Shown here: positions 4,369 through 64,000 of the stretch, piece by piece
How positions within the stretch are numbered: the first letter of the stretch is position 1
Layout of the letters: the number at the start of each line of letters is the position of its first letter
DNA from: Parapristionchus giblindavisi
Taxonomy: Eukaryota > Nematoda > Chromadorea > Rhabditida > Diplogasteridae
Direction of reading: 5' to 3'
DNA: 64,000 nucleotides
Assembly: GCA_943737045.1 (NCBI GenBank)
Contig: CALSFV010000369.1
Coordinates: forward strand, 62,001-126,000
Notes under the pieces: model-generated
What the model was told of the DNA's origin: nothing
Databases searched by the model: none
The model's input: the letters and a program-made list of their open reading frames with translations, nothing else
Translations under genes and position numbers: made by a program

Positions 4369-4468
4369 TAAATATGTAGGTGTGCTGTTATAATCACTGC
4401 GTCATCAGAACTTTCTTAGAAGCCTAACTTTGGATGATATGAGTAAAGTGTGTATTATTTCGTTCCAG

Positions 4469-5559: not shown

Positions 5560-6044
5560 TTTCGGTCAAAGCAAAGGGTCCTCCCAAAGCACAATGTTCT
5601 CTTCCTAGATAACAAACAATAAGGAGTCCATAGACTGTTTACCACAATGATCCCTCTAACTTGTAATAATATCGCTTATAATTATATCATGTAATTCTTG
5701 TCATTATGATTTCCACATGGTTGTTTCATTATTCAATGATCTCATTGTTTTTTTCTTTTAAGAGATTTTTTTATTTAATTGATTTTTTTAAATTTTCAAA
5801 ATTGTTCTGTTGGCGTTAAAGATCCTGGAATAAAATAACTATATGATATGTTATTGATAGTATTGTGCGTATAAAATGTACTTGCATAAGAAATTGACAA
5901 ACGGGCTCTAACAAGGAACGGGAGTCACTCAAAGGCTAGATCTCGCACAACTCTCGATTGTCTCTCCACTGCCTCTCACCTAACCCGGCTGACCTTCGCC
6001 GTGCGCTATTTGATATATAAAAGAGATCGGCAAAGTTTCTGAAA

Positions 6045-6203
6045 ATGAGCAATGTACAACAAGAAATAGTCTCTTCTACAAATAAAACAAGTGATTTTTA
6101 TACGCTCAATACAAAAGCATTGAAAGATATGACGATGAGTGTTGTAAAGAGCGTGGAGAGTCCACTGGAGACAATCTCTTCATCTAATGTACTCATATAT
6201 TGA
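6045..6203 (+). CDS. Small open frame, 52 aa, unrecognised
   Basis: The ATG at 6045 opens MSNVQQEIVSSTNKTSDF… and TGA follows at 6201-6203. The product is hydrophilic with Ser/Thr/Lys and has no cysteine or signal peptide. A TATA-like TATATAAAAG lies at 6014-6023, about 22-31 nt upstream. The stop codon runs straight into the purine-rich minisatellite. A frame of this length can occur by chance in AT-rich DNA. The codon mix and the TATA position are the only support. An identical copy is at 15392-15550. Confidence 0.3.
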   Translation: MSNVQQEIVSSTNKTSDFYTLNTKALKDMTMSVVKSVESPLETISSSNVLIY

Positions 6204-7143
6204 GAGGGGGAAGAGGGGGGAAGAGTGAGGAAGGGGGAGAAGGCCTGGGAAAGAGGGGGAGAGGGGGAAGGCCTGGGGAGAGGGGAAAGAGGGAGGAAGA
6301 GGGGGGAGAGGGGGAAGAGGGGGCAAGGCCTGGGGAAGAGGGGGGAGAGGGGGGAAGAGGGAAGAGGGGGAAGAGTTGGAAGCAGGGGTGTGCGGCAACT
6401 AAGTTGCCGATTGCCGGAATTGCCGAAATTGCCGACTTTTGATTGCCGAAATTGATTGCCGGCAACGGCAACCAATTATGAAAAATTGCCGAAGTAAAAT
6501 TCAAGCAAAAAATGATTGAAAAAAGTGAGATAAGCACAAGTTTTGTGTGCAATATCTTAGAAATGTGATGTATACGGTATACCAAAACGAAAAATCGTGT
6601 CGTTTTGAGATTGACATTTCGTTAGCCTTTGTGTTTTCTCCAGGAAGTCGAACGTTTTCTGGCCACTACAGCAGAGACGGAGATTGATCCATTCTCTCAT
6701 TAGACTATCAATGTTACGAAGGCATAACACAAGCTTATCTCACGAGTAGCCACGAAGCATCTAATTTGCCCATACAGATCTGCGAAAGCAGAAAGACTAT
6801 TCGGGACTGCGGGAATCTGTATCAACAATGCAGAAAGAATCTTTCCAAATATCACTCAACAGAATATTCTACTTATTTGTACATAAGTAACGAAAAATAT
6901 TGATATTTCAATTCTTTTTGCAATTTTTTATTGCCATTGGTTTCGTTTGGTAACGATTTTTGATAAGAATTTTTTATTTTCCCTGTTGCCGACAATTGCC
7001 AATTGCCGAAAAAAGTGGTTGACGCACACCCCTGGTTGGAAGGCCTGGGGAAGAGGGGGAACGCCTGGGGAAGAGGGGGAACGCCTGGGGAAGAGGGGGA
7101 ACGCCTGGGGAAGAGGGGGGGGAGAAGGGGGAAGCGGGGGGAA
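6200..7143. repeat. Purine-rich GGGGAAGAGG minisatellite split by a MITE
   Basis: Units of the type GGGGGAAGAGG with interspersed GGCCTGGG run from 6200 to 6382 and resume at 7035-7143. The intervening hAT-like MITE (6383-7034) carries an 8-bp duplication of the minisatellite itself, so it inserted into a pre-existing array. The G-runs could form quadruplexes. The long proline/leucine-rich frames on the opposite strand are a by-product of this composition. Copy 2: 15547-16490. Confidence 0.85.
6383..7034. mobile_element. hAT-like MITE with TTGCCGA motif repeats (652 bp)
   Basis: The termini are CAGGGGTGTGCGGC… and …GACGCACACCCCTG. The 8-bp direct repeat GTTGGAAG flanks both sides (6375-6382 and 7035-7042). 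Both ends carry runs of TTGCCG/CGGCAA. The length, CAGGG terminus and 8-bp duplication fit non-autonomous hAT elements. There is no transposase frame. Confidence 0.85.
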
Positions 7144-7299
7144 GAGGCAACAACATATGAAAAATAAATATGATCAGAATAAAAGGTGATGATAATAACA
7201 TAATATTATAATTTTGCCACAAACCTGTTGCCATAACATTGCCGTATTGTAGTCGGCTATTCAATCACATTTGGAGCGTTTCAAAACTAATCTCACTGA

Positions 7300-7420
7300 T
7301 TAAAGGGAGCGTAACCTCACTCAATGGTCTCTTCGACGCGCTTTGCTCTCTCGTTGTAAGAGCACAGAGAAATAGTGTGCGCAATGAAGAGGTCATTGAG
7401 TGAGGTCACTCTCCCTTTAA
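7300..7420. mobile_element. Short palindromic element P2 (TTAA-flanked)
   Basis: The ends are TAAAGGGAGCGTAACCTCAC and GTGAGGTCACTCTCCCTTTA, which form a near-perfect palindrome of about 120 bp. The same element recurs at 33851-33968, and a half copy lies near 34030-34072. TTAA/TTTAA at the edges suggests a piggyBac-like or other TTAA-targeting MITE. Confidence 0.7.
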
Positions 7421-7906
7421 TTGTCCCCGTGTAATGGAAGAGTAGTTTAGATAGTTTGTCCAAACATGCTCGTTATCAAAATGTTACCCATCTTGGTACA
7501 GATGAAAAATTAAATGATCAAAATGCTAGTAAACGAAATGATGCTTTATTGTTTGCTTTCCTAAATGATGAACCACCCACATAGTGATCAGTGGGAGAAC
7601 ACACTACCACTACACCACGCCACCATGTTCCGAATGATCTTTCAAGGGCTCTATCAGGGGAGCCTTATTTCATCGCCTACACAGCCTGTAAAAATCGCGT
7701 TCGAGTGTACAAAATATAATTATTTATATATAAAATCGGAAAGTGCATGCCAGGTGCTGATTTTTTGGTTCCGACCTTATTTTTCCTATACCTATCGAGG
7801 ACAAATATTCTCGTTCAAAGGTCAAAAAGATATTTCTCACACTTCCCTTGTAAGCTTTCATCAAATGACCAATATGTTTATCACAGAAACGATCACACAA
7901 TCAATT

Positions 7907-10765
7907 TTAATATCCACGATGTTTTCCAGCGTCATCATACGCTTTCTGTCCAAAATTCTTCACTGCAGTACAGAATGCAGCTGCATCAGTTCCGCAGAGA
8001 GCAGTAGCTGAAATTATTAAATATTCATAATACTTGTATATTTTGTTCCTTTAAAATGTTAAGATTCTTTCCCATGAACATTACCTGCGGCAGCTTCTCT
8101 GAGGCATCCACAGAATATCTGGTCGCATGATGCTTTCGCTATTTGGCGATCGTAGCACGAGTCGTGTAGTCTGACAATATTAAATTGATGTGTAATAAGA
8201 AAATTGTCAAAAAATGCAAACAGCGAATTGTTTTTCATAGTGAAAGAGAGTGCAATATAAGAGATGAAATTTGACATTTGAAATTTTGGCAACTTTATTA
8301 ATTCAAACCAGGGCTGTGCGGCATGAGTATATTTTCGGCATACGGCATAACGAGATATGTAGAATATTTTTTTCGGCATATTTCGGCATAAAAACGGCAT
8401 ATTCGGCATAAGTTTCCAAAGCATTATTGATACCCACCATCCCCTTTCCGTGCAGGTTAAGATCTCCCCAGATATAATCATACCTTCTTCTAAGATTTGC
8501 CCATAGCTCCCAAACTGCCACTGTACCCAAGAACCCTCACCGATATCGCTACATTAGCGACGGACATCCATCACTCCCTTTATGCCCTTATTTTTCTTGT
8601 TATGCATATTATGATGGAATAAAGAATAAGAATAAGAATAAGAATACTCTGAATATTAATATTTCAATATTGTAGGCGGAAACATTAAAATGCTTTTTTG
8701 TTAATCGATGTTTAAGATTTAGTTACAGTATACCTTATGTAAAAAAGTTGAAGAACTGCGCAAACAATTTATTTGCGCATTTTTTGATATTGAAAAATGC
8801 TCAAATTGAGATATAGCTAGTAGTTTTATGCCGAAAATATTTAAAATTTTCATGCTGTTTTCGGCACGGCATAAGCGGCATGAAAAACCGGCATAAACGG
8901 CATATTCGGCATACCGGCATAGCCATGCCGCACAACCCTGATTCAAACCCGTTTAGCTATAGTTAATTTGAACCTATTTTCAGGGTGACATTTTCGCTAG
9001 ATCGTTGGTAACAAAGGTAAAGGTGAAGCTATTCAAGTCCTACAGGAGATGCTAATTCATTTACCTTACAAAACACTATCTGAGAGAATTCAATAACTGG
9101 AATATTTTTCGGTATCGATGAAAAATGAATTTTTCTGTTTTATGTATGATAATTACAGGCTCCATGAGTGAAATACACTGGTACTTGGAAATTGCTTCCA
9201 ATTGAAAATTCGCATCAGGGGGTGACCACACAACGATTTGGCGCCTTTTCCTAAAAGGTTTATTTTGAATCCAATCGATGCGGGAGTGGACGCAATCGAC
9301 TCCTTAGCTAATTCTAAGAAACTATTGTCAAGGGGAGTTTTTCGATCAACGGTCAACGCTGGAATTTTGAATTTTCGAAAAAAATTTCACATTTAATTAA
9401 TTTTCACTATTTTGCTTCAACAACCCTACGTTTTTTTATTTGCTTAATCGCTTCTAAATATCATAACACAGGTTCAGTTTAAAAATCATAATTTTTTAAA
9501 AATACGATTACGGTGAATAAATCATTTTTATAATGAAGTCGTGAATTATGGTGTGGCACCTACAGTATCCCGAATCGATCAATTTAGAAATCTTGTAGTT
9601 TTAAACATATTTTACCGCTATTCCTGACATGACTAAGGTATACGACTACTCCTCGTCTTCGGAGTGCACCCGTGCCCAGGTGCTGATGTCGATGAAAATT
9701 GACAATTTTCGTAAATTGATCACTATTTCGTTGTTTGTGATCCAATATCGATAAAAATTGGACCACTATACCATATTATCATCTATGCAAACATACTAAA
9801 AAATAAAGAGAATCGGTTGACTGCGAAGAAAGTTATTGTTGAAAAACCAAAATATTGTAGAATATTTGCCAGCACTGTACCGTGCAGGTGCACTCCGAAG
9901 ACGAGGAGTAGTCGTATACCTTAGTCATGTCAGGAACAGCGGTAAAATTTGTTTAAAGATTTCTAAATTGATCGATTCGGGATACTGTAGGTGCTACACC
10001 ATAATTCACGACTTCATTATAAAAATGATTTATTCACCGTAATCGTATTTTTAAAAAATTATGATTTTTAAACTGAAGCTGTGTTATGATATTTAGAAGC
10101 GATTAAGCAAATAAAAAAACGTAGGGTTGTTGAAGCAAAATAGTGAAAATTAATTAAATGTGGAATTTTTTTCGAAAATTCAAAATTCCAGCCTTCGTTG
10201 ACCGTTGATCAAAAAACTCTCCTAAGCAATAGTTTCTTAGAATTAGCCAAGGAGTCCATTGCTCCCAATCACGAATCGATTGGCATCGAAATAAACTTTT
10301 TAGGAAAAGGCGCCAAATCGTTGTGTGGTCACCCCCTGATGCCAATTTTCAATTGGAAGCAATTTCCAAGTACCAGTGTACTTCACTCATTGAGCCTGTA
10401 TTTATCATACATAAAAGAGAAAAATCCATTTTTCGTCGATACCGCACCTATGTCGACTTTCTAAGATAGCGTGTTTTACGTGCCTAGGCCGTAACCTCCG
10501 CCGCCGCATCTCCGTCGTTGCGGCGGAGTTTACGGCGTAGGCACGTAAGGTAAATGTAACCATGCATAAGCCAGTGATAATTCAGAGCATTGACATGGAT
10601 TCATTACCTACAACAAGAGTCGAATTGGGGTAGTCTTGAATCGCAATCGAGCGTGATGAAGAGGTTGGTGACGTAGTTCTGGAACCGATTGGCACCGCAC
10701 GAGAATGCCGAGGATCCCGCCACGAAGTGCATGAGGACAGCGAGGATTACGGTAGTCGAGCGCAT
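7907..10765 (-). CDS. Secreted phospholipase A2-like protein, copy A (114 aa)
   Basis: Three exons read 10765-10608, 8170-8085 and 8007-7907, with stop TAA at 7909-7907 and all junctions in phase. Residues 1-20 are a signal peptide (MRSTTVILAVLMHFVAGSSA). The mature part has 10 cysteines and the PLA2 active-site block CC-x2-HD-x-CYD (Cys51, Cys52, His55, Asp56, Cys58, Tyr59), followed by C-x4-FCGCL (Cys68, Cys73, Cys75). The classical glycine-rich calcium loop is not seen, so catalysis is uncertain; this matches short secreted PLA2-fold families in nematodes. Intron 1 (2,437 bp) is swollen by a hAT-like MITE and a 1.3-kb fold-back element; the relative at 22912 has only 393 bp there. A trans-splice-type acceptor (TGTTCCAG) lies just upstream of the ATG. 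Confidence 0.85.
8309..8940. mobile_element. hAT-like MITE with CGGCATA motif repeats (632 bp)
   Basis: The termini CAGGGCTGTGCGG and CCGCACAACCCTG are inverted repeats. ATTCAAAC is duplicated at 8301-8308 and 8941-8948. Both subterminal regions are filled with CGGCATA/TATGCCG. It lies in intron 1 of the PLA2-like gene. An older retroelement tail (8537-8655) is embedded in it. Confidence 0.88.
8537..8655 (+). repeat. Retroelement 3' tail followed by (AATAAG)n
   Basis: TAGCGACGGACATCCATCA followed by GATGGAATAAAGAATAAG matches the tails seen at 22383-22490 (minus), 27045-27130, 30523-30660, 41160-41285 and 52527-52680. Each tail ends in a different simple repeat. The parent element is not identified. 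Confidence 0.6.
9111..10443. mobile_element. Large fold-back element (1.33 kb) in PLA2-like intron 1
   Basis: Two inverted arms of roughly 0.6 kb pair across a short centre. GGTATCGATGAAAAATG at 9111 mirrors the sequence ending at 10443, and the stretch around 9410-9480 mirrors 10075-10140. Arms are about 90% alike by eye, with small differences. No transposase is seen. Apparent open frames inside the arms are mirrored and probably not genes. Copy 2: 18458-19790. Confidence 0.85.
10477..10548. repeat. GC-rich 72-bp palindrome
   Basis: TTACGTGCCTA…/…TAGGCACGTAA with inner CTCCGCCGC/GCGGCGGAG forms a strong hairpin in otherwise AT-rich DNA, 60 nt from exon 1 of the PLA2-like gene (inside intron 1). 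No other copy outside the duplication was noticed. Copy 2: 19824-19895. Confidence 0.75.
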
Positions 10766-10986
10766 ACTGTATCTGGAACAGATAATATTGATTTATATTT
10801 GTGGGAACGCAACGAATGAAAGAGGCTGATTGTTATGGATTGAAAGTTTTTATAGTGAAATTTTCTTATGAATGAGTTGTTGATTCTATTTCATACGTGG
10901 TCAACAATTTGAATTATCGAACAAGATTCAAGGAATATTAGTAATTCTTCAATAGCATGGTATTTACAGGACATCATGCGATCATT

Positions 10987-11092
10987 TTAAGGGCGTACCA
11001 TGAGCTCCGTTCCGGCAATACTCTCTCGTAAACAAAGAAAGATAGAGAACATGGTCAGAGCAGAGAGTTTCAAATTTGCTTGGGGTGTGCGT
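10987..11092. mobile_element. Short palindromic element P1 (GGCACACCCCGAGCT type)
   Basis: This is a diverged copy of a 105-125-bp palindrome. Its arms contain GAAACTCTCCGCTCTGGCAA and its ends resemble TTTAAGGGCACACCCC. Other copies: 20334-20439, 23935-24030, 32033-32139, 32401-32525, 33286-33858 (split), 35122-35250, 45037-45159 and a half at 45994-46066. TTTAA at the edges suggests a TTAA-type target. Confidence 0.75.
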
Positions 11093-11095
11093 GTA

Positions 11096-11656
11096 CAGTC
11101 CCGCCCGATCGCCCTGTCTAAACGTGCCGCCTGTGCCGCATCTCGTTTTACGGGCTGAATAATGTTCCTAAAAATATGAAAAGTGTTCTAATCATTGTTA
11201 TGTTCGATATGATTCATAATGCCACAGAAACGAAAATTTTTGCTTGACTCTAGATAGTGCAACACAGTTTGGCAATTTCGTAGGTACATATACTGTAATG
11301 CTACCGTATGCAATATTTAAATTTTTGAATTTCCCACAATTTTTATTGTGAAATGCGCAATAACACGAAAACAGGAGTCACTCAATACGACAGGATGGCC
11401 AAAAATTGTGGGAAATTCAAAATTTGAATATTGCATACTGTAGCATTACAGTATACCTTCGGAATTGCCAGATTGTGTTGCACTATCTAGAGTCAAGCAA
11501 AAATTTTCGTTTCTGTGGCATTATGAATCATATCGAACATAACAATGATTAGTACACTTTTCATATTTTTAGGAACATTATTCAGCCCGTAAAACGAGAT
11601 GCGGCACAGGCGTGCCGCGGCGTGCCGCGTTTAGACAGGGCGATCGGGCGGGACTG
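11096..11656. mobile_element. TA-flanked fold-back MITE (CAGTCCCGCCCGATCG ends)
   Basis: Inverted arms of about 250 bp begin CAGTCCCGCCCGATCGCCCT and end with the reverse complement at 11656. TA flanks both sides (11094-11095 and 11657-11658), the Tc1/mariner target duplication. The two arms differ by small indels, including an extra GTGCCGCG near the right end. It inserted beside palindrome P1. Copy 2: 20443-21003. Confidence 0.85.
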
Positions 11657-11818
11657 TAGTAGGATTGTGAGTCAATTGTTACCCATCTTTACGCGATAAT
11701 ATTTGCATAGACAGACATGCAACCAATGATACTGTTCGCATAATATCAGAATATGTATGTCGTATATGTAATATCAGTGAGTAATTAGGTATTGACCGCA
11801 TAAAATACACTTGTTTAT

Positions 11819-13372
11819 TTGGTACGAGAGTATCCAGATAATGGTACCCTTCCTACCGCACCACACTACCCTGATTTAGGAAACTTTCAAGAGCCTCAAT
11901 TCCACCGTCATGAGATTTGTGCACTAATTGAGAAATGGAAAAGGTCTTCTTGCAAAACGCCTGAAAATATCGATTTATCATTCATCAAAAACATTTCCGT
12001 TCCAATCTCTGAAGCGCTTGAAATTATTTTCAATATCTCGTATGAATCAGGAGTTGTTCCCTCCTTGTGGCGTCACTCCATAATTACCCCAGTCAAGAAA
12101 CAACCTCCCTATTCTGACCCTATGAACTACCGTCCGATATCAATAACTTCCCTTTTCTGCCGCATCTTCGAGCGCCTTTTGTGCAAACCAATAATCAATC
12201 ACTGTGAATCGTTAGAAATATTTCCTGATGAGCAATATGGTTTTCGAAAGAAAAGATCACGAGAAATGCAAATGCTTGAGGTTCTAGAACATTGGACCAC
12301 GTCTATTAGTGACGGTAAACCTGTCGATGTCATTTATTTTGATTTTGCTAAAGCTTTTGACAGAGTATTGCACAATAAGCTTTTAATGAAATTAAGCAAG
12401 ATTGGTCTCTCGACTAGAACTACAAATTGGATATCCGGGTATCTGCAAAATCGCACTTTCCAAGTAAGAATACACGATAAATTGTCAAAGTCACTGCCCG
12501 TTACTAGTGGTGTACCCCAAGGTTCAGTATTAGGCCCTTTACTTTTCCTGATCTATACCTCAGAAATTCCATCCCTTGTCCAAAATAATGGTGTCATTGC
12601 AAGGATGTACGCGGATGATATCAAAATTTTCAAAGCTATTGAGGATGAAAATTCATCCGCTCCCCTACAGTCTGCTATAGATGCCATCACTAAATGGGCC
12701 GATGATTGGCAACTCCCACTAGCCGCCCATAAATGCAATTCACTACATCTTGGTAGAGCTAATACCAAGAAGACATACTCAATCGGGTCACAAAACTTGA
12801 CTCAAAAGGATCTAGTCAGAGACCTGGGTTTCATTATTCAGAAATCTTTAACCTTCACAGATCACTGTAAAAATATTGATATAAAAGGTAAAACAGCATG
12901 CCATATTATCCTACGAGCACTGAGGACCAAAAATGTGGATGTCCTCCTTAGTGCATATACGATATATATAAGACCAATCCTTGAAAGCGCAACAGCAGTT
13001 TTTAATCCGTTCAAAAAGCACGACAAAATAGTCATCGAAAGAGTACAGAATTATTTCACAAGAAGGCTATTTATGCGCTGTTACAGCCATACCTGGGATA
13101 CTGTGCCCTGTAGCGCACTGAGAAACACCCAGTTGGGCATAGAGCCCTTAGAGAAGCGCAGAGAGCACGTAGATTTGAGGACAGCCATGAACCTACTTAG
13201 AGGAAAATATAAAATATCCAATAAAAAATCCCACTATTTTCGCCCTTATACCACACGAAACAGACTCAACTTTAACAACCCCGGATCTAGATTTAATTAT
13301 AGACATTACAGCTTCTTTCCTAGAGCGGCAAGACTTTTGGTACAACCTGGCAATCAAATAGAGTTTCCCTAA
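11819..13372 (+). pseudogene. 5'-truncated LINE RT frame created at the duplication junction
   Basis: The first codons come from the right-hand flank (MVREYP at 11819-11836). Thereafter the sequence equals the LINE RT from residue about 250 to its normal stop, keeping the NYRPIS, GVPQGSVLGPL and YADD blocks but lacking the endonuclease. TTG at 11819 is the only upstream start-like codon, so translation is unlikely. The frame is a product of the 9,347-bp duplication breakpoint. Confidence 0.85.
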
Positions 13373-13815
13373 CCAATTATGTTTAGTCCCTATTGTTCCA
13401 AAGATTCGTCCATTATTCTACTCTTTAACCCGTAAGAATTTCATTGTCATTAGCTTTATCATCATTTTCTTGTCTCGATTCATTTCGTTTCTTTTACTTC
13501 TATCACACGTTTCACTGTTTACTCATGAATACGTATAAATATTATTATATGTTATGTTATGTTGTGTCATATGTATTTTTTACTCTGTAGACCATTTAAT
13601 TTTTTCCGGTTTTCCGGTATTTTTTCGGAAAATTTTCCGGTCGGAAAATTTACCGAAAAGGGGTCGAAAAAACCGGAAAATTTTTCCGGTCGGAAAATGT
13701 TCCGCACAACCCTGCTAAATATGTAGGTGTGCTGTTATAATCACTGCGTCATCAGAACTTTCTTAGAAGCCTAACTTTGGATGATATGAGTAAAGTGTGT
13801 ATTATTTCGTTCCAG

Positions 13816-14906
13816 TTCGCTTCATAATTCCGATTGCGCTGAGCGGATTCTACATTTTCACACTGCTCGATATGGCCGCAGCCATTGCTATAGATCAATA
13901 CATCGAGGTTGATCTTTGATCTTTGATCTTTGATCTTTTAATTCTAATTTTGTTTCTTGTTTTGTTTTGGAACAGATGACAAACAGTGAAGAAGTTGTTG
14001 ATTTTTGAAAAAAAAAAACTTTTTTTTCTGTTAAAATAACTCTTAAATATTTTTTTCAAATAGTCGATCAATTATCTTTGATCTTTCCAGACTCAATGGC
14101 ACCATCGCGTGGCTCGACAACTCTGCTTCGTTGGAGCCTTTCTCGCCTTTCCTCTATTCCATGACGCGCATACTGAATTCTTCAATTGGAAAGTGTGCTC
14201 AGCTCAAGGTAGAATGTTCATGCTAAAGAGAGAAATAGCAAAAAATCGTGTAACTTGAAACATCAACAAAACATTTGCGAGAACGCACGCAATGATAGCA
14301 AATTGTTCCTTTTATTGCTACAATTTGGCAAAAGATTGGCACAAAGGGGGAGACGAACCCACGACCTCTGCCTCTCCGGGGCATCGCTCTAGCCGCTGAG
14401 CTATCTTTTTTTAAATTTCAGTTCCTTGGCAAGTAGCACTGGGAGAGTATCTTTTCGTTCTCGCTGAAGTTATATTCTGCGTCATTCAATTTATAGAAGT
14501 ATCGTAAGTGAATGATTTCTTTTTTTACTAAACAAAGTTCTATTTTCAGAGATCTTGAGGTCAGTGTGATTTCTCGCGAAGACGACCTAATGCACAAGTA
14601 AAACAATTTTAAATATTTTTTAGCAATGATGCGAAAAATTTAAGCCTACCTGAGATCTACGCCGATCAATATTCCCCAGCTGGAGAAGAATTTCACAAAA
14701 CTACCGTAACGCAGAACAATTCCTGCCAGGACCTCACGCCGTGTTCAACCATTACGGTAGCCGAATCAATCGATGAGCTGGGCATAGTCTTTGGGGTTAT
14801 TGTAGATGACGACGATGTTATCGATCGGATTACTCCAAACATCGATCGATTTTTAGTAGCTGAAGGGCATACAATAGAGTATATGACGGATGTTGATATT
14901 GATTGA
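13816..14906 (+). CDS. Multi-pass membrane protein 3' exons, copy 2
   Basis: Exons 13816-13907, 14091-14208, 14422-14503, 14550-14597 and 14624-14906 repeat the copy at 4469-5559 exactly. Directly upstream lies a truncated LINE, so this copy has no visible N-terminal exons or promoter and is probably a dead fragment. Confidence 0.5.
14339..14407 (-). repeat. tRNA-derived sequence, copy 2
   Basis: Duplicate of 4992-5060, with the same A- and B-box-like sequences and unpaired acceptor arms. Confidence 0.6.
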
Positions 14907-15391
14907 TTTCGGTCAAAGCAAAGGGTCCTCCCAAAGCACAATGTTCTCTTCCTAGATAACAAACAATAAGGAGTCCATAGACTGTTTACCACAATGATCC
15001 CTCTAACTTGTAATAATATCGCTTATAATTATATCATGTAATTCTTGTCATTATGATTTCCACATGGTTGTTTCATTATTCAATGATCTCATTGTTTTTT
15101 TCTTTTAAGAGATTTTTTTATTTAATTGATTTTTTTAAATTTTCAAAATTGTTCTGTTGGCGTTAAAGATCCTGGAATAAAATAACTATATGATATGTTA
15201 TTGATAGTATTGTGCGTATAAAATGTACTTGCATAAGAAATTGACAAACGGGCTCTAACAAGGAACGGGAGTCACTCAAAGGCTAGATCTCGCACAACTC
15301 TCGATTGTCTCTCCACTGCCTCTCACCTAACCCGGCTGACCTTCGCCGTGCGCTATTTGATATATAAAAGAGATCGGCAAAGTTTCTGAAA

Positions 15392-15550
15392 ATGAGCAAT
15401 GTACAACAAGAAATAGTCTCTTCTACAAATAAAACAAGTGATTTTTATACGCTCAATACAAAAGCATTGAAAGATATGACGATGAGTGTTGTAAAGAGCG
15501 TGGAGAGTCCACTGGAGACAATCTCTTCATCTAATGTACTCATATATTGA
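15392..15550 (+). CDS. Small open frame, 52 aa, copy 2
   Basis: Duplicate of 6045-6203, with the TATA-like sequence at 15361-15370. Unrecognised and possibly not a gene. Confidence 0.28.
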   Translation: MSNVQQEIVSSTNKTSDFYTLNTKALKDMTMSVVKSVESPLETISSSNVLIY

Positions 15551-15729
15551 GAGGGGGAAGAGGGGGGAAGAGTGAGGAAGGGGGAGAAGGCCTGGGAAAG
15601 AGGGGGAGAGGGGGAAGGCCTGGGGAGAGGGGAAAGAGGGAGGAAGAGGGGGGAGAGGGGGAAGAGGGGGCAAGGCCTGGGGAAGAGGGGGGAGAGGGGG
15701 GAAGAGGGAAGAGGGGGAAGAGTTGGAAG

Positions 15730-16381
15730 CAGGGGTGTGCGGCAACTAAGTTGCCGATTGCCGGAATTGCCGAAATTGCCGACTTTTGATTGCCGAAATT
15801 GATTGCCGGCAACGGCAACCAATTATGAAAAATTGCCGAAGTAAAATTCAAGCAAAAAATGATTGAAAAAAGTGAGATAAGCACAAGTTTTGTGTGCAAT
15901 ATCTTAGAAATGTGATGTATACGGTATACCAAAACGAAAAATCGTGTCGTTTTGAGATTGACATTTCGTTAGCCTTTGTGTTTTCTCCAGGAAGTCGAAC
16001 GTTTTCTGGCCACTACAGCAGAGACGGAGATTGATCCATTCTCTCATTAGACTATCAATGTTACGAAGGCATAACACAAGCTTATCTCACGAGTAGCCAC
16101 GAAGCATCTAATTTGCCCATACAGATCTGCGAAAGCAGAAAGACTATTCGGGACTGCGGGAATCTGTATCAACAATGCAGAAAGAATCTTTCCAAATATC
16201 ACTCAACAGAATATTCTACTTATTTGTACATAAGTAACGAAAAATATTGATATTTCAATTCTTTTTGCAATTTTTTATTGCCATTGGTTTCGTTTGGTAA
16301 CGATTTTTGATAAGAATTTTTTATTTTCCCTGTTGCCGACAATTGCCAATTGCCGAAAAAAGTGGTTGACGCACACCCCTG
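15730..16381. mobile_element. hAT-like MITE (TTGCCGA type), copy 2
   Basis: Duplicate of 6383-7034 including the flanking GTTGGAAG repeats. It was carried by the segmental duplication, not by a second transposition. Confidence 0.85.
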
Positions 16382-16646
16382 GTTGGAAGGCCTGGGGAAG
16401 AGGGGGAACGCCTGGGGAAGAGGGGGAACGCCTGGGGAAGAGGGGGAACGCCTGGGGAAGAGGGGGGGGAGAAGGGGGAAGCGGGGGGAAGAGGCAACAA
16501 CATATGAAAAATAAATATGATCAGAATAAAAGGTGATGATAATAACATAATATTATAATTTTGCCACAAACCTGTTGCCATAACATTGCCGTATTGTAGT
16601 CGGCTATTCAATCACATTTGGAGCGTTTCAAAACTAATCTCACTGA

Positions 16647-16767
16647 TTAAAGGGAGCGTAACCTCACTCAATGGTCTCTTCGACGCGCTTTGCTCTCTCG
16701 TTGTAAGAGCACAGAGAAATAGTGTGCGCAATGAAGAGGTCATTGAGTGAGGTCACTCTCCCTTTAA
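16647..16767. mobile_element. Short palindromic element P2, copy in duplication
   Basis: Duplicate of 7300-7420. Confidence 0.7.
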
Positions 16768-17253
16768 TTGTCCCCGTGTAATGGAAGAGTAGTTTAGATA
16801 GTTTGTCCAAACATGCTCGTTATCAAAATGTTACCCATCTTGGTACAGATGAAAAATTAAATGATCAAAATGCTAGTAAACGAAATGATGCTTTATTGTT
16901 TGCTTTCCTAAATGATGAACCACCCACATAGTGATCAGTGGGAGAACACACTACCACTACACCACGCCACCATGTTCCGAATGATCTTTCAAGGGCTCTA
17001 TCAGGGGAGCCTTATTTCATCGCCTACACAGCCTGTAAAAATCGCGTTCGAGTGTACAAAATATAATTATTTATATATAAAATCGGAAAGTGCATGCCAG
17101 GTGCTGATTTTTTGGTTCCGACCTTATTTTTCCTATACCTATCGAGGACAAATATTCTCGTTCAAAGGTCAAAAAGATATTTCTCACACTTCCCTTGTAA
17201 GCTTTCATCAAATGACCAATATGTTTATCACAGAAACGATCACACAATCAATT

Positions 17254-20112
17254 TTAATATCCACGATGTTTTCCAGCGTCATCATACGCTTTCTGTCCAA
17301 AATTCTTCACTGCAGTACAGAATGCAGCTGCATCAGTTCCGCAGAGAGCAGTAGCTGAAATTATTAAATATTCATAATACTTGTATATTTTGTTCCTTTA
17401 AAATGTTAAGATTCTTTCCCATGAACATTACCTGCGGCAGCTTCTCTGAGGCATCCACAGAATATCTGGTCGCATGATGCTTTCGCTATTTGGCGATCGT
17501 AGCACGAGTCGTGTAGTCTGACAATATTAAATTGATGTGTAATAAGAAAATTGTCAAAAAATGCAAACAGCGAATTGTTTTTCATAGTGAAAGAGAGTGC
17601 AATATAAGAGATGAAATTTGACATTTGAAATTTTGGCAACTTTATTAATTCAAACCAGGGCTGTGCGGCATGAGTATATTTTCGGCATACGGCATAACGA
17701 GATATGTAGAATATTTTTTTCGGCATATTTCGGCATAAAAACGGCATATTCGGCATAAGTTTCCAAAGCATTATTGATACCCACCATCCCCTTTCCGTGC
17801 AGGTTAAGATCTCCCCAGATATAATCATACCTTCTTCTAAGATTTGCCCATAGCTCCCAAACTGCCACTGTACCCAAGAACCCTCACCGATATCGCTACA
17901 TTAGCGACGGACATCCATCACTCCCTTTATGCCCTTATTTTTCTTGTTATGCATATTATGATGGAATAAAGAATAAGAATAAGAATAAGAATACTCTGAA
18001 TATTAATATTTCAATATTGTAGGCGGAAACATTAAAATGCTTTTTTGTTAATCGATGTTTAAGATTTAGTTACAGTATACCTTATGTAAAAAAGTTGAAG
18101 AACTGCGCAAACAATTTATTTGCGCATTTTTTGATATTGAAAAATGCTCAAATTGAGATATAGCTAGTAGTTTTATGCCGAAAATATTTAAAATTTTCAT
18201 GCTGTTTTCGGCACGGCATAAGCGGCATGAAAAACCGGCATAAACGGCATATTCGGCATACCGGCATAGCCATGCCGCACAACCCTGATTCAAACCCGTT
18301 TAGCTATAGTTAATTTGAACCTATTTTCAGGGTGACATTTTCGCTAGATCGTTGGTAACAAAGGTAAAGGTGAAGCTATTCAAGTCCTACAGGAGATGCT
18401 AATTCATTTACCTTACAAAACACTATCTGAGAGAATTCAATAACTGGAATATTTTTCGGTATCGATGAAAAATGAATTTTTCTGTTTTATGTATGATAAT
18501 TACAGGCTCCATGAGTGAAATACACTGGTACTTGGAAATTGCTTCCAATTGAAAATTCGCATCAGGGGGTGACCACACAACGATTTGGCGCCTTTTCCTA
18601 AAAGGTTTATTTTGAATCCAATCGATGCGGGAGTGGACGCAATCGACTCCTTAGCTAATTCTAAGAAACTATTGTCAAGGGGAGTTTTTCGATCAACGGT
18701 CAACGCTGGAATTTTGAATTTTCGAAAAAAATTTCACATTTAATTAATTTTCACTATTTTGCTTCAACAACCCTACGTTTTTTTATTTGCTTAATCGCTT
18801 CTAAATATCATAACACAGGTTCAGTTTAAAAATCATAATTTTTTAAAAATACGATTACGGTGAATAAATCATTTTTATAATGAAGTCGTGAATTATGGTG
18901 TGGCACCTACAGTATCCCGAATCGATCAATTTAGAAATCTTGTAGTTTTAAACATATTTTACCGCTATTCCTGACATGACTAAGGTATACGACTACTCCT
19001 CGTCTTCGGAGTGCACCCGTGCCCAGGTGCTGATGTCGATGAAAATTGACAATTTTCGTAAATTGATCACTATTTCGTTGTTTGTGATCCAATATCGATA
19101 AAAATTGGACCACTATACCATATTATCATCTATGCAAACATACTAAAAAATAAAGAGAATCGGTTGACTGCGAAGAAAGTTATTGTTGAAAAACCAAAAT
19201 ATTGTAGAATATTTGCCAGCACTGTACCGTGCAGGTGCACTCCGAAGACGAGGAGTAGTCGTATACCTTAGTCATGTCAGGAACAGCGGTAAAATTTGTT
19301 TAAAGATTTCTAAATTGATCGATTCGGGATACTGTAGGTGCTACACCATAATTCACGACTTCATTATAAAAATGATTTATTCACCGTAATCGTATTTTTA
19401 AAAAATTATGATTTTTAAACTGAAGCTGTGTTATGATATTTAGAAGCGATTAAGCAAATAAAAAAACGTAGGGTTGTTGAAGCAAAATAGTGAAAATTAA
19501 TTAAATGTGGAATTTTTTTCGAAAATTCAAAATTCCAGCCTTCGTTGACCGTTGATCAAAAAACTCTCCTAAGCAATAGTTTCTTAGAATTAGCCAAGGA
19601 GTCCATTGCTCCCAATCACGAATCGATTGGCATCGAAATAAACTTTTTAGGAAAAGGCGCCAAATCGTTGTGTGGTCACCCCCTGATGCCAATTTTCAAT
19701 TGGAAGCAATTTCCAAGTACCAGTGTACTTCACTCATTGAGCCTGTATTTATCATACATAAAAGAGAAAAATCCATTTTTCGTCGATACCGCACCTATGT
19801 CGACTTTCTAAGATAGCGTGTTTTACGTGCCTAGGCCGTAACCTCCGCCGCCGCATCTCCGTCGTTGCGGCGGAGTTTACGGCGTAGGCACGTAAGGTAA
19901 ATGTAACCATGCATAAGCCAGTGATAATTCAGAGCATTGACATGGATTCATTACCTACAACAAGAGTCGAATTGGGGTAGTCTTGAATCGCAATCGAGCG
20001 TGATGAAGAGGTTGGTGACGTAGTTCTGGAACCGATTGGCACCGCACGAGAATGCCGAGGATCCCGCCACGAAGTGCATGAGGACAGCGAGGATTACGGT
20101 AGTCGAGCGCAT
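17254..20112 (-). CDS. Secreted phospholipase A2-like protein, copy B (114 aa)
   Basis: Exons 20112-19955, 17517-17432 and 17354-17254 are identical to copy A, so signal peptide, CC-x2-HD-x-CYD block and cysteines are all kept. Both copies are intact and both have the same transposon-filled intron 1 (17518-19954). If the duplication is real, dosage of this secreted protein is doubled. Confidence 0.85.
17656..18287. mobile_element. hAT-like MITE (CGGCATA type), copy 2
   Basis: Duplicate of 8309-8940 with the same flanking ATTCAAAC. Confidence 0.88.
18458..19790. mobile_element. Large fold-back element, copy 2
   Basis: Duplicate of 9111-10443. Confidence 0.85.
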
Positions 20113-20442
20113 ACTGTATCTGGAACAGATAATATTGATTTATATTTGTGGGAACGCAACGAATGAAAGAGGCTGATTGTTATGGATTGAAAGTTTTTAT
20201 AGTGAAATTTTCTTATGAATGAGTTGTTGATTCTATTTCATACGTGGTCAACAATTTGAATTATCGAACAAGATTCAAGGAATATTAGTAATTCTTCAAT
20301 AGCATGGTATTTACAGGACATCATGCGATCATTTTAAGGGCGTACCATGAGCTCCGTTCCGGCAATACTCTCTCGTAAACAAAGAAAGATAGAGAACATG
20401 GTCAGAGCAGAGAGTTTCAAATTTGCTTGGGGTGTGCGTGTA

Positions 20443-21003
20443 CAGTCCCGCCCGATCGCCCTGTCTAAACGTGCCGCCTGTGCCGCATCTCGTTTTACGG
20501 GCTGAATAATGTTCCTAAAAATATGAAAAGTGTTCTAATCATTGTTATGTTCGATATGATTCATAATGCCACAGAAACGAAAATTTTTGCTTGACTCTAG
20601 ATAGTGCAACACAGTTTGGCAATTTCGTAGGTACATATACTGTAATGCTACCGTATGCAATATTTAAATTTTTGAATTTCCCACAATTTTTATTGTGAAA
20701 TGCGCAATAACACGAAAACAGGAGTCACTCAATACGACAGGATGGCCAAAAATTGTGGGAAATTCAAAATTTGAATATTGCATACTGTAGCATTACAGTA
20801 TACCTTCGGAATTGCCAGATTGTGTTGCACTATCTAGAGTCAAGCAAAAATTTTCGTTTCTGTGGCATTATGAATCATATCGAACATAACAATGATTAGT
20901 ACACTTTTCATATTTTTAGGAACATTATTCAGCCCGTAAAACGAGATGCGGCACAGGCGTGCCGCGGCGTGCCGCGTTTAGACAGGGCGATCGGGCGGGA
21001 CTG
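20443..21003. mobile_element. TA-flanked fold-back MITE, copy 2
   Basis: Duplicate of 11096-11656. Confidence 0.85.
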
Positions 21004-21146
21004 TAGTAGGATTGTGAGTCAATTGTTACCCATCTTTACGCGATAATATTTGCATAGACAGACATGCAACCAATGATACTGTTCGCATAATATCAGAATA
21101 TGTATGTCGTATATGTAATATCAGTGAGTAATTAGGTATTGACCGC

Positions 21147-21350
21147 ATAAAATACACTTGTTTATTTGGTACGAGAGTATCCAGCCACAGCCATAATGCG
21201 GTTCTTTGTTTAGAGAGAGCACAAGTGAGATAGTAGGTAGATCAGAGAGAGCGAGGAAGGAAGAGCGGAAAAGTGGGGAGTTGATCGATAGTTCTTTCTC
21301 TGTTTAGCAGCCAGTATCAAGGCAATTATACAAGTATGTACGTTTTATGC
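21147..21350. repeat. Dispersed 200-bp segment, also at 30137-30335
   Basis: The stretch from AAAATACACTTGTTTATTTG through TTTCTCTGTTTAGCAGCCAG and CAATTATACAAGTA recurs with scattered differences at 30137-30335. The right breakpoint of the 9,347-bp duplication lies inside this segment (21184). Both copies lie between members of the PLA2-like cluster, so this may be an old cluster duplication. Confidence 0.7.
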
Positions 21351-59449: not shown

Positions 59450-60890
59450 GTGAGTGTGACTATTACAGTCTCTTTGGTTTCTCGTGATAGTTCATGACAA
59501 GTATATGGATAAATGTGTGGCAGCGGGGCAGCAAAAATGAAGTGCAGAAATGCGATAAAATATGGTATTTTATTTTAGTATTTTTCCACTCAGTAGTAGT
59601 GTATGTGTTCGTGACTTGTGGGTATTAAGTATTTTTGGGGGTCGAATTTTTATGACCATTCGTGTCATTAGTTTATTATTGGTTCGGTAGTGGCATAGTA
59701 AATAAATATAGTAAATATAAAGTACTATAAATATTATTATAAACATTAATATTATAATATTATGGAATGTAATGTGATTCTCTGATGCATAATCACACTC
59801 GGAAGTAATGCACTCAGATTTCGGAATAGTAATGAAAAATAAGGAAAGTGAAGTGGTCGAATTACTGTTTTGGGCCTTGTCTCTATTGTTTTGTACAATG
59901 ACAAATGTTCAAGTGTTATAACACTGCTATTCAGAGTATAACACTCGGGTGTTCTAAATTTTTAACATTCCAGGCGTTTCAGAGTTTCTTTCTTCTTTCA
60001 AAACGCTACGCAAAATGTATAGCTTGTTTTCATTAATCGTAGCAAGTGTGTAATATCCTTGAAGCTAGAAAAAAAGAAGAACGAAATGCGAATTAGCTTT
60101 AATTCGAATTAGCAATTTCCCCGATTCACTGAGAAAATTTGTTTATGAAAGTACGGGACATTCTAATCCTCCTCTATTGCTCTAAATGCACAGCACAGGA
60201 AACACAGCCTCCTCTACTTTGCGTGCAATTTGGATAAGCTGACTCATGTTTTTGCATACCGCATATGCTTGTCTGGACATATGAAAATGTCCTGAAACAT
60301 GATACTGCAATATGACTTAACAATGTGCTAATCACCCATACGTCCATGATACATAGATATGGTGCAGTCTATACCCTCACATGCCAATTGCAGGGGAAAA
60401 TGCAAAACAAAATTGGGCATTTTAGTTATAAAATTCCATTCCGCTTTGTTGTCTACCACAAAGAGTGCCTTCTTCGGCGGGCGAACGGACCTCCTCTCCT
60501 CTCGTGCTCCCGATTGAAATATATATTCGCCCTTTCTGGGTTATAGCAATATTCTGATATCACTTTATGTGGTTCGTGAATTAATAATAGCATCCCTATG
60601 CATGAGGATTGTCGTAGTACGCCTTGAGAATGTTTGCTTCCTTCCTCTTATAAGGATCAGAGATTTCTCGCATTTTAAAAGTTGAAAAATCGTCCTGAAA
60701 GGGAAACCGCGATTAAAAGTATTCTTTTTCATACATTTTGTATAGAACAATTTAGAATAGTTGTTGGATACCTTGATATGTGGAGACTAGAGTAGTAACC
60801 AATACAAGTTTATCACAAATATAATAGAGTTCGAATCTAAGACTAGGGATAGAAGAGTGTACAAGAATACGAACCAAGTAAATGGTGTTT
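59450..60890. other. Part of large PI4K-like intron, no further gene seen
   Basis: AT-rich DNA with no exon of the kinase domain recognised. Similarity at 60850-60895 to the start of the antisense frame (CGTATTCTTGTACA against CGTATCTTGTACA, minus strand) marks the edge of the retroelement-like unit. Confidence 0.5.
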
Positions 60891-60918
60891 TACTTGTAAC
60901 GCACTTGCTTATAGCCAA

Positions 60919-61130
60919 TAAGGTTCCTCACGAAGCAGAACCTTACTAACTTTTGCCCTCACGAAGCAGGCAGATAAACCGAATAACTCCCCTCACGAAG
61001 CAGAGAGTTAATCGGCGGCAACTGTCCTCACGAAGCAGACAGTCACCTCAGCAGAACTATTACAACCCTCACGAAGCAGGTTGCAACAATTCAAGAAGAC
61101 GGAATGTTCAACGCTCACGAAGCACGCTGA
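60919..61130 (-). other. Hairpin array with invariant CCTCACGAAGCAG loop
   Basis: Loops at 60926-60938, 60957-60969, 60991-61003, 61026-61038 and 61067-61079 are identical, and a shortened one (CTCACGAAGCA) lies near 61113-61123. Arms differ: TAAGGTT/AACCTTA (60919-60925/60939-60945), TGC/GCA, TAACTC/GAGTTA, ACTGT/ACAGT (61021-61025/61039-61043), CAAC/GTTG (61063-61066/61080-61083) and TCAACG/CGCTGA with one mismatch. Transcribed from the minus strand, the loop would read CTGCTTCGTGAGG. Confidence 0.85.
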
Positions 61131-61821
61131 TACAAACCAGAAGAAAGAAGCAAGATTGAATTGAATGAATACTAGGCAGAGACGAAGACAGATCAAGACT
61201 CCCCTCACTAATCAATGAGGATGACAAATAATGATGAAATGATTACGACCAATTCAATAAACTGTGAACACGACACGAGCGTAAGTTACACAATACTATT
61301 TATCTACAATAACAATGAAACACGAAGCTAATCTACTAAACTACTGGGAGAAACGACGAACAATTAATTAACACGAAATTATAATAAAAACAAGAGAGAA
61401 CATCGGCGTCACCAGCCGGGAAAGGAGAGAAGAGCAAGACTGATGACAATTTGAAAACCCCGTGGGCGGAGTCATGGGCGGAGTCATGGGCGCTGCTAAG
61501 TGGTAAACATAGGATGATTACAGGATGTAATTGAGTGGCTACTTGCGTACTCAAATAATAAGAGATAATGAAATGAATATATAATGATAATTTAGTATTT
61601 GAATATGATAATTAACGATAATCAACGACGATTACGGCTCTCTATACATGCCGCTTCCCTCACAGAATGCGTCCTCGCATTCAATCTCAACGACGATGGG
61701 GATTACGGTAACGGCTCGACCTCTTCAGCAGCAACGAAAGTTGACGAATGAGTATGCCTTGCGCATAACGAGATAATGAATGACGACGATACGATTGTAT
61801 GCCTTGCGCATAAAGAGATAA

Positions 61822-63858
61822 TCAACGACGACGATACGATTGTAGGTGATTGAGATGAAGATGAGAGTACGGTAGTTGATAATGGGGTTGATGATGGTAA
61901 TAATATGAAAAAGTAAAGCATAATATGAACAGGTATGATACAAAACAAAAATGAACAATGAATGAATATGATAAATGACGAAGGGCATCCAGCTTCCTTC
62001 TTCCTTCGTGAACGACATAAGACATAGGCTCCCCTCCAGGTAAGACCGACGATGACTCCTTATCAGGTTCTTTCGGGACCACCTTCCTTCGATCCAGTTG
62101 TTCAACCTCCACACCATCTGACAAGACCAACGACAACTTCTTATCCGGTTCCCTTGGGACCACTTTCCTTCGATCCAGTTGCTCCACCTTCATATCCTGA
62201 TCCAACATAATCTCACACGATACAGCTCCTGAATCCATCTTCACCGACACTCTACCTTCACAATTCTTCTTCACGATCTCCTCACTAACATTCTTCTTAT
62301 CTCCACTAACAAATCCATCCAAATTCTCCTTTACGATCTCCTCCTTACTATCATTCTTTCCATCTCCAATAATACTATCAAGTCCATTCACCGTAGCGTC
62401 ACTAACAGCAACTTCATTAACCTTCCTTTCAACCATATCCTCCTTCTCAGCAACATCCTCCTTCACAATATTATCCTTCTCGATGTCCTCTTCTTCAACA
62501 ATATCCTTCTTCACAGCATCCTTCTGCTCCACAATATCCTTTTCCTCAACATTCATATCTTCAATAGCATCCTCCAAATCCTCTTGATCGATAACATACT
62601 CTTCCTTAATAACATTCTCTTCAATATCATCTTCATTTTTAGCAATATCTTTCTTCTTAACAGCATCCTCAAATTCTTTAACAATATCATTTTCTTCAAT
62701 ATCCTTATCTTCTTTAAAAATATCCTTCTCATTAACAGTAACCTCTCGCTTGACAATATACTCTTCTTTAATATTAACATCCTTCTCTTTAATAATGCTC
62801 TCCTGTTCAATAATATTCTCTTGTTCAACAATATGTGCATGTATATCTTCTCCCTTAGGTAAACTCGCTCCCACTTCACTTATACGATTCCCATTTCTTC
62901 CACTAATGACCTCATCTTTGACGCTCAAATCAATATCCATAGACTCCAAGGCACTTCGCTTCGATATAATATACGGCTTCTTCATATCCGTGTCAACAAC
63001 TACTTCTTTACTCCACTTCTTTACTCCTGAATACACTTCCAAAACTGTGGTTCCATCGGTCTTCTCCTGATCTCCCTGAGTATCAGAGCTATCCGTGGCC
63101 ACTTTATCCTCAACGGCTTCTCTTACGACCTCCTTAGCCGTACCCTTAGCCGCATTTACCTCTTCACCATTATCGAAACACATCTGCGCCTGTAATCCTC
63201 CTTTTAATTCACATTGAGCATCTTGAACTTCATTATGAGATTCTTCTCCAGCATGGGTCTCCTCAATCTTAACACATATTTTATCCACACATTGTACTTC
63301 CTGTACACTCATATCATCTCCATAATCAGTAGTCTTCACTTCACTACGAGTAATATTGCGCGATCTTGTAGTCTCCCCTCTCAATCCTTTAAGTCGACTA
63401 CTTTCTTCTCTTTTCCTGGCCTCGTATTCCAGCATATGATCCTTCATTTCTTCATATGTTGCATGTTCTTCACCATAGAGTCTCCGTAGCTCACGATATT
63501 CCTCGTGATTCTCGTGCATGATGACGAATAAACTCGCTCTTCGTCTACTCAAGCATGAAGTACCTTCGTGCAGCCTCTCAGTATGAAACTCAAACTCCAA
63601 ATAAACATCTCTTAATTCACGTTCATTTCCATTCACGGTGAGTTTATTCAATATCCGCAGGCTCTCATATTCCTCACGAAAACTTGTCTTGTGATCCGCC
63701 GTCCTTGAACAATATCCAACATCCATAGGGTCCTGTCGTGTAGGCTCCCCTCGACGACGACGACTTGTTTCTGCTACTCCTCTTATTCCTTCTTGCATCT
63801 GCTTGCTCCACTTAGTATCCATCCAATTGTCCTCTGTTCGGCACGGCTCAGCCCCCAT
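61822..63858 (-). CDS. Acidic, lysine-rich coiled-coil protein, 678 aa, unrecognised
   Basis: The frame runs from ATG (63858-63856; MGAEPCRTEDNWMDTKWSKQ) to a stop at 61822-61824 and is also open upstream to about 63918 without ATG. Residues about 60-150 are a mixed helical region (LRDVYLEFEF, YRELRRLYGEEHATYEEMKD). Residues about 330-470 are dense, imperfect heptad-like repeats of the type EKDIVxEED, predicted coiled coil. A 25-residue unit beginning VEQLDRRKVVP occurs twice near 62190-62030. The C-terminus is hydrophobic and His/Tyr-rich, with a 48-bp tandem repeat around 61757-61850. No enzyme motif is seen. Position inside the hairpin-flanked unit suggests a Gag-like or accessory product; this is inference. 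Confidence 0.55.
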   Translation of the reverse strand: MGAEPCRTEDNWMDTKWSKQMQEGIRGVAETSRRRRGEPTRQDPMDVGYCSRTADHKTSFREEYESLRILNKLTVNGNERELRDVYLEFEFHTERLHEGTSCLSRRRASLFVIMHENHEEYRELRRLYGEEHATYEEMKDHMLEYEARKREESSRLKGLRGETTRSRNITRSEVKTTDYGDDMSVQEVQCVDKICVKIEETHAGEESHNEVQDAQCELKGGLQAQMCFDNGEEVNAAKGTAKEVVREAVEDKVATDSSDTQGDQEKTDGTTVLEVYSGVKKWSKEVVVDTDMKKPYIISKRSALESMDIDLSVKDEVISGRNGNRISEVGASLPKGEDIHAHIVEQENIIEQESIIKEKDVNIKEEYIVKREVTVNEKDIFKEDKDIEENDIVKEFEDAVKKKDIAKNEDDIEENVIKEEYVIDQEDLEDAIEDMNVEEKDIVEQKDAVKKDIVEEEDIEKDNIVKEDVAEKEDMVERKVNEVAVSDATVNGLDSIIGDGKNDSKEEIVKENLDGFVSGDKKNVSEEIVKKNCEGRVSVKMDSGAVSCEIMLDQDMKVEQLDRRKVVPREPDKKLSLVLSDGVEVEQLDRRKVVPKEPDKESSSVLPGGEPMSYVVHEGRRKLDALRHLSYSFIVHFCFVSYLFILCFTFSYYYHHQPHYQLPYSHLHLNHLQSYRRR

Positions 63859-63918
63859 GTACAAGATACGGAACGAGCTAGATCTAATTCTAGTCGAAGC
63901 GCACTTGCTTATAGTCAA

Positions 63919-64000
63919 TAAAGATCCTCACGAAGCAGATCTTTACCAACTTTTGCCCTCACGAAGCAGGCAGATAAACCGAATAACTCCCCTCACGAAG
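63919..64000 (-). other. Second hairpin array (CCTCACGAAGCAG), runs off the window
   Basis: This is homologous to 60919-61000. The first hairpin has arms TAAAGAT (63919-63925) and ATCTTTA (63939-63945) around the same loop. Compared with TAAGGTT/AACCTTA of the other copy, both changed pairs are compensated. The next two loops (63957-63969 and from 63991) are identical to the other copy. Confidence 0.85.

Follow-up and report, generated by a model that had tools for sequence, protein, structure and literature searches.

A conserved-loop hairpin array in the leaders of Ty3/gypsy elements of Parapristionchus giblindavisi and its candidate role as an RNA recognition cassette

Introduction

Repeated hairpins that display a common loop have been described from viral RNAs, and the present analysis concerns an array of such hairpins in the long terminal repeats (LTRs) of a Ty3/gypsy-derived retrotransposon of the nematode Parapristionchus giblindavisi, situated at one end of a 64,000-nucleotide stretch of its genome (C369:62001-126000, on contig CALSFV010000369.1; hereafter the window). 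In the region of the gammaretroviral 5' leader that serves packaging and dimerisation, the SL-C/SL-D pair likewise repeats a hairpin whose apical loop is conserved, both members bearing GACG tetraloops that contact each other (PMC5874298). The packaging signals of satellite tobacco necrosis virus (STNV), bacteriophage MS2 and hepatitis B virus (HBV) are similarly made up of many stem-loops with a short common loop motif and variable stems (PMC3662417; PMC7612645). A further likeness is offered by the cross- or co-packaging of distantly related retroviral RNAs, with recombination, described in a third account (PMC5086612).

The worm array differs from the GACG pair in its 9-nt R-CUUYGU-GA apex, which is not self-complementary and is usually present in four to eight copies, in its Ty3/gypsy carriers and in its location, which may be before or after the primer site; membership in the GACG hairpin family is excluded, the GACG loop being absent. 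Whereas the signals of single-stranded RNA viruses are scattered over the genome, the worm copies are clustered in the leader and contact with a capsid is here putative, and cross-packaging among the worm elements would be a deduction from common loops and swapped array segments only. At gathering score, Rfam gave three matches in the window, all of them to tRNA and none at the arrays. Searched as whole words, CUUUGUGA, CUUCGUGA, GCUUCGUGA and ACUUUGUGA occurred in no paper of the literature text, a weak test given that sequences often stand in figures. A leader motif of this kind likewise had no match in the literature searched, which apart from the cited papers was covered at the level of search listings, and the word 'hairpin' is absent from the available part of the text of a paper on P. 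pacificus repeats (PMC9297572).

Results

A conserved nine-nucleotide core on variable stems

The initial annotation of the window had described a fixed 13-mer loop, CCTCACGAAGCAG, held between arms that differ from hairpin to hairpin and remain complementary. The arms that it quoted are correct, and a pattern scan found seven exact copies of the 13-mer in the window at the places given, with an additional copy at 61113 carrying two mismatches. When up to two mismatches were allowed there were 11 matches, a number reached by none of 100 shuffles, and three of the 11 (3904, 13251, 40422) are unrelated to the hairpin array. Genome-wide scans of the 251 Mb assembly gave 89 exact copies against none for a reversed-pattern control, of which a manual tally assigned 68 to the family of the window element (family A), two to a family-A relic on contig C392 and 17 to a second family (family B). 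The remaining two copies (L046, L050) are strays without a stem, as against approximately seven expected by chance from simple arithmetic under uniform composition. The occurrence of the 13-mer without complementary flanks, which had been named as a refuting case, is thus seen in two of the 89 copies, the other 87 lying in family A, its relic or family B.

Leader folds and comparison of the arrays narrowed the 13-nt loop to a core of 9 nt on the coding RNA, RCUUYGUGA, carried on variable stems. Conservation of the loop was borne out over 9 nt rather than 13, and one position allows C or U and another A or G, a core variant of the CTTCG type (CTTCGTGA) being present. In the folds predicted for an A leader and a B leader (fold z-scores of -6.8 and -2.7, respectively) a C-G pair closes a UUYGU pentaloop, with an R-A mismatch below it. 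The stems are mostly symmetric in families A, B and D, and those of family C have no or one extra base on one side and two on the other.

Pairing was assessed in 48 arrays with hand-drawn limits, containing 65 distinct core contexts, and in 292 control cores from at least 120 viral-contig stretches, which had been selected for having two cores and were treated collectively as chance matches rather than inspected singly. All 50 distinct cores preceded by a purine (R-cores) lay in a helix of at least 4 bp when offsets of up to 3 nt were allowed, compared with 25.7% of the control cores; without offsets the proportions were 78% and 4.1%, and for helices of at least 7 bp they were 66% and 3.1%. 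Elsewhere in the nematode loci examined, two of 13 cores had a 7-bp helix, both from the family-A relic. Among the 15 distinct contexts in which U precedes the core (TCTTTGTGA), 11 lack a stem and are located in linkers; such extra linker copies accompany the usual four to eight hairpins in families C and D and in swapped B leaders. The form ACTTTGTGG is found on a paired stem in the family C element L072 and in swapped B leaders. Repeats on C28 (L067, L068) and C21 (L070) contain the core without a clean stem and were not accepted as members. In the B leaders L053 and L055 the B4/B5 hairpin pair stands three times in tandem, compared with one or two times in other copies, an indication that arrays grow by unit duplication.

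Covariation of the arms and origin of the LTR differences

In alignment A1, for which 20 hairpin rows (19 distinct) were hand-picked from families A and B, 94.7% of cells were paired, compared with 65.4% after shuffling and 37-51% after sliding, and both sides varied in nine of the ten pairs. Unpicked counts were taken from 13 of 14 family A arrays (eight distinct; the one omitted, the second LTR of L035, is identical to the first), from 17 of 26 family B leaders (14 distinct; the other nine, whose arrays are swapped, truncated or decayed, were omitted) and from six family C arrays, whose repeat numbers differ such that misalignment may add breaks. Family A had 511 of 512 cells paired, with 11 variant pair types kept (four of them double) and one broken, and its variable columns numbered 0 of 54 in the loops, 15 of 128 in the arms and 10 of 68 in the linkers. 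The corresponding fractions for loop, arm and linker were 7/63, 8/122 and 32/107 in family B, where the loop changes were by manual reading mostly the permitted R and Y swaps, and 0/36, 21/80 and 26/95 in family C. The earlier proposal that the loop is fixed while the arms stay complementary in the minus-strand RNA of an LTR element holds for family A, but the compensated differences within the window, on which it had drawn, are not independent events.

These differences are real, in that the hairpins at 60919-60945 and 63919-63945 differ at 60922 and 60924 and at the partner positions 60942 and 60940. Their description as four of only six differences depends on where the alignment is cut, the paired positions themselves being right and the whole LTRs differing at 21 (two of them single-base gaps), all of which fall within 60866-60947, with none in the other approximately 700 bp. 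Because the second, compensated version of the arms of hairpin 1 is also present in both LTRs of element L034, the paired differences are standing variation that was brought in as a block. Independent compensatory mutation within the window element is ruled out, all 21 differences lying in one patch and the arm version existing elsewhere. The LTR pairs of L033 and L034 differ at two positions and one position, respectively; in L037 the final 40 bp of the LTR hold 14 of the 15 differences, and the L072 pair is distinguished by a single 47-bp unit together with six changes in the final approximately 110 bp, plus four letters at the hand-drawn LTR boundary. In L031, L037 and L072 the two LTRs thus differ solely or mainly at the end adjoining the primer site, as if that end had been swapped during reverse transcription or by conversion.

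Carrier families and exchange of array segments

The arrays of the window sit in the two LTRs of one non-autonomous Ty3/gypsy-derived element whose coding strand is the minus strand (Table 1), with LTRs of approximately 790 bp and an internal region of 2209 bp. The LTRs of family A start with TG and end with CA, and a target site duplication (TSD) of 4 bp was present in all seven elements. The presumed primer site of the family, TGGGGGCYRAGCC, adjoins the LTR directly, and in the window element the putative primer-binding site TGGGGGCTGAGCCGTGCC together with the last LTR base forms the ATG of a long open frame. This frame had no match to Pfam at E 0.01, so that no reverse transcriptase (RT) or integrase was found, and a protein search with its first 260 residues gave no matches at E 1e-3. 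With no pol found, with a gag fragment of the type seen in the family C element L071, and with the primer site, U5 end and 4-bp TSD of that element, family A is classed as a non-autonomous gypsy derivative. Its integration by the family B integrase is disfavoured by a TSD of 4 bp rather than 5 bp and by a different primer site. The family A copies L033 (C107) and L034 (C208) have satellite-like direct repeats on their flanks.

A genome search for two cores in tandem gave 234 places, compared with 11 when the pattern was reversed, and revealed families C and D; the listed part of these places (approximately 100) was by eye entirely of A, B, C or D type, with none resembling a host gene. Families B, C and D are assigned, from their domains and termini, to the Ty3/gypsy LTR retrotransposons. 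In family B, L040 has DUF7083 (gag), RVT_1 and rve above the Pfam cut-offs, and RNase H was not found in it by Pfam; a search with the B gag protein gave six matches, of which five belong to Pristionchus mayeri, P. fissidentatus and P. entomophagus (62-71% identity), as would suit a Pristionchus-like nematode. The TSD of family B is 5 bp in the four elements read (one of which lies inside a repeat and is ambiguous), and its primer site differs from that of family A. The family C element L071 has protease, RT, RNase H, H2C2 and integrase core domains above the Pfam cut-offs, in that order, with a weak gag (Retrotrans_gag at 16.6 bits, cut-off 24.1), a piece of which returned no matches in a protein search at E 1e-3, and L072 is a non-autonomous element of the same family whose frame resembles that of the window element by eye. 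Family D has RNase H, H2C2 and rve and the primer-site sequence of A and C, RT not being among the domains in the 5 kb read. Families A, C and D have the primer site and U5 end in common, L071 also having a 4-bp TSD, and RT identity between B and C is 30%. Both the L071 pol frame and that of D (L079, reverse strand) finish with a CCHC-type zinc knuckle after the integrase (zf-CCHC at 20.2 and 16.5 bits, cut-off 20.8), a candidate RNA-binding part.

Array segments have been exchanged between these lineages, an addition to the initial annotation, which had not placed the motif in gypsy elements of two lineages. Eight of 26 B leaders (L057-L060, L062-L064, L066) have a C-type segment first and then B hairpins, the segment being 60-108 nt long with 85-95% identity to the C array, and by coordinates a B primer site lies within approximately 170 nt of each of the eight swapped stretches. 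Between the family A element L036 and L072, similarity is 85.6% ahead of the array and 88.8% beyond it, while the arrays themselves are not alignable. Five of the six loops of the family A array match the 13-mer loop of B exactly, and in a comparison of one A with one B element the array was the only clear nucleotide similarity found. Because C-type segments stand in B leaders, the flanks of A and L072 are alike without their arrays being so, and the A-B likeness is limited to the array, the array appears to be a portable module that is replaced or moved between lineages with its core retained.

Strand, position and fold energy

All 246 R-cores of the 48 arrays are in the coding orientation, with none antisense. 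In ten elements of families A, C and D the R-cores lie 75-318 nt before the primer site, and in nine B elements they lie 103-333 nt after it, upstream of the gag ATG, which is at 335-448 in the eight of these nine where it was found. Families A, C and D carry the array inside the LTR, and family B carries it outside. Fold z-scores were computed for nine of the 48 arrays on the coding and antisense strands, and fold energy separated the strands in family A only (three arrays; -5.6 to -6.6 coding, -0.4 to -1.4 antisense). Over all pairs, G-U wobbles outnumbered A-C mismatches by 44 to 4. Compared with a retroviral-type packaging signal (psi), the placement in the predicted leader fits, being near the primer-binding site and the start of gag, the fold is unusual in A, B and L071 and ordinary in L072 and D, and many loci with these primer sites probably have no intact array.

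Proposed function and alternative explanations

Beyond the observed anatomy, strand, pairing, conservation, family distribution and exchange of array segments, a protein reader and a packaging step are inferred here. The interpretation tentatively favoured is that the array may be a leader-RNA recognition cassette of Ty3/gypsy elements, read by a trans-acting RNA-binding protein and most likely serving packaging. The hairpins would display many single-stranded copies of (R)CUUYGUGA close to the primer-binding site, the protein would bind the motif, probably cooperatively, and the sequence of the stems may drift while pairing persists. The step served would most likely be encapsidation, with Gag or a Gag-associated factor picking out the full-length RNA, and non-autonomous elements (family A, L072) would show the motif in order to ride with the autonomous clade of the same primer site and, for A, also the same 4-bp TSD. 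A trans-acting reader is suggested because the loop sequence is kept while the stems need only pair, the copies are many, on one strand and near the primer site, the users are both autonomous and dependent, and the array is portable; packaging is preferred because of the position and the retention in dependent elements. The loop-binding factor or packaging signal of the initial annotation fits the family A data, whereas dimerisation through the loop, also offered there, is disfavoured in that the core is not self-complementary, and a dimer initiation hairpin, for which a palindromic loop is required, was rejected on the same ground.

Several observations weigh against this interpretation. Variant pair types were kept and broken in similar numbers in family B (four to three, with 694 of 697 cells paired) and family C (seven to eight, with 232 of 240 paired), so that the earlier claim of a fold kept by selection, judged by restoring against breaking changes, is upheld for A, with single changes in B and C pointing neither way. 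The innermost pair gives most of the wobbles, and with it excluded the G-U to A-C ratio falls to 11 to 4. Fold energy did not separate the strands in the three B arrays (-3.3 to -4.6 coding, -3.2 to -4.7 antisense) or in L071 (-3.1 and -2.9) and was ordinary for L072 (-0.7 and -1.6) and D (-1.3 and -1.6), and there are four instances, all in family B, of a core with one change on a stem of at least 5 bp. The B and C gag pieces align at the zinc knuckle only, and a single shared Gag specificity is for this reason not obvious. The A/C/D primer site is present at 44 places and the B primer site at 74, with arrays obtained for 12 and 24, and queries with leader and array sequences had no match at the approximately 32 and 50 unread loci. 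Since the 48 arrays already account for 190 of the 234 two-core places, most of these loci probably lack an intact two-core array of this spacing, and they may be decayed, truncated or members of array-free subfamilies; such numbers argue against a general need for the array among elements that have these primer sites.

Reading of the array by a host RNA-binding protein, for export, translation, stability or germline localisation of the unspliced RNA, stands close behind because the gags of the two lineages are so unlike, and it is a possible if somewhat doubtful explanation. Any lineage could then gain an array, which would account for its spread, and the same motif does occur in lineages whose gags cannot be aligned, as well as in swapped arrays. 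The linker copies (TCTTTGTGA), mostly stemless, suggest a single-stranded site, and genomic RNA export is known to be limiting, Cer1 of Caenorhabditis elegans needing its own protein CERV for it (PMC10309623). However, the places listed in the two-core search included no host gene by eye, where a set of host genes under such control might have been expected to appear, single-copy sites being able to escape such a search, and the array is retained in non-autonomous elements at the classic position of a packaging signal. An extension of the packaging interpretation, in which distant Ty3/gypsy lineages and their dependents would use one loop motif as a common code and co-packaged RNAs would swap cassettes by template switching, is considered unlikely; if it were true, the cassette and not the gag lineage would decide which elements get mobilised.

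Two explanations that dispense with an RNA reader fare less well. Tandem growth of units is evident in the B4/B5 pairs and the C repeats, arm repair can mimic compensation, and broken pair types are about as frequent as kept ones in B and C, as would be expected were the arrays a mutational by-product in which template switching or hairpin repair keeps the arms alike without selection and the loops are recent tandem copies. This is nevertheless very unlikely given that the loops of A and C are invariant while their arms and linkers vary, and that one core stands on unrelated arms, in fixed orientation, in four families. The HMG-box proteins of the TCF/SOX type recognise an orientation-free DNA site with the consensus CTTTG/CAAAG. 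CTTTGTG resembles such sites and the arrays of A, C and D are inside LTRs, but an array of them acting as an LTR enhancer, with incidental palindromic arms, is scarcely credible when all R-cores share one orientation, the arms covary, the B array is outside the LTR and the variant CTTCGTGA destroys the site.

To our knowledge, little is understood of how the RNAs of animal Ty3/gypsy elements are distinguished from host mRNA. The arrays constitute a natural many-copy experiment, in which one displayed motif stands on many unrelated stems, is used by autonomous and dependent elements alike and occurs in swapped cassettes. They supply a defined RNA (core versus core mutant) for finding the putative reader, and a sequence test of which non-autonomous elements ride on which partner.

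Features of the window element and other observations

Table 1. Coordinates, in window positions, of the family A element and its hairpin arrays
Feature	Position	Strand	Remarks
4-bp target duplication AGAG	60854-60857		matching copy beyond window end
3' LTR	60858..61648	-	starts TG, ends CA
Patch with all 21 inter-LTR differences	60866..60947	n/a	
3' LTR hairpin 1	60919..60945	-	core 60928-60936
3' LTR hairpin 2	60954..60972	-	core 60959-60967, stem 5 bp
3' LTR hairpin 3	60984..61010	-	core 60993-61001
3' LTR hairpin 4	61017..61047	-	core 61028-61036
3' LTR hairpin 5	61057..61089	-	core 61069-61077
3' LTR hairpin 6	61108..61130	-	core 61115-61123; 13-mer has two changes, 9-mer core unchanged
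Open frame of 678 aa from primer-site ATG	61822..63858	-	
Gag-related part of 678-aa frame	63394..63672	-	37% identity to gag of gypsy element L071, 97 aligned positions, E 2e-12
Presumed primer-binding site TGGGGGCTGAGCCGTGCC	63840..63857	-	directly after 5' LTR; role inferred from position
5' LTR	63858..64000 within window	-	extends to 64648; 97.3% identical to 3' LTR
5' LTR hairpin 1	63919..63945	-	compensated arm version
5' LTR hairpin 2	63954..63972	-	
5' LTR hairpin 3	from ~63984, crosses window end		hairpins 4-6 beyond window

Elsewhere in the window, weak tRNA-like Rfam matches at 4996-5059 and 14343-14406 (30.8 bits, cut-off 29), neither of which is called by ARAGORN, lie one in each copy of a tandem duplication. 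This duplication, at 2490-21184, is exact over 9348 bp (2490-11837 and 11837-21184; 100% identical) and is either very recent or an assembly artefact.

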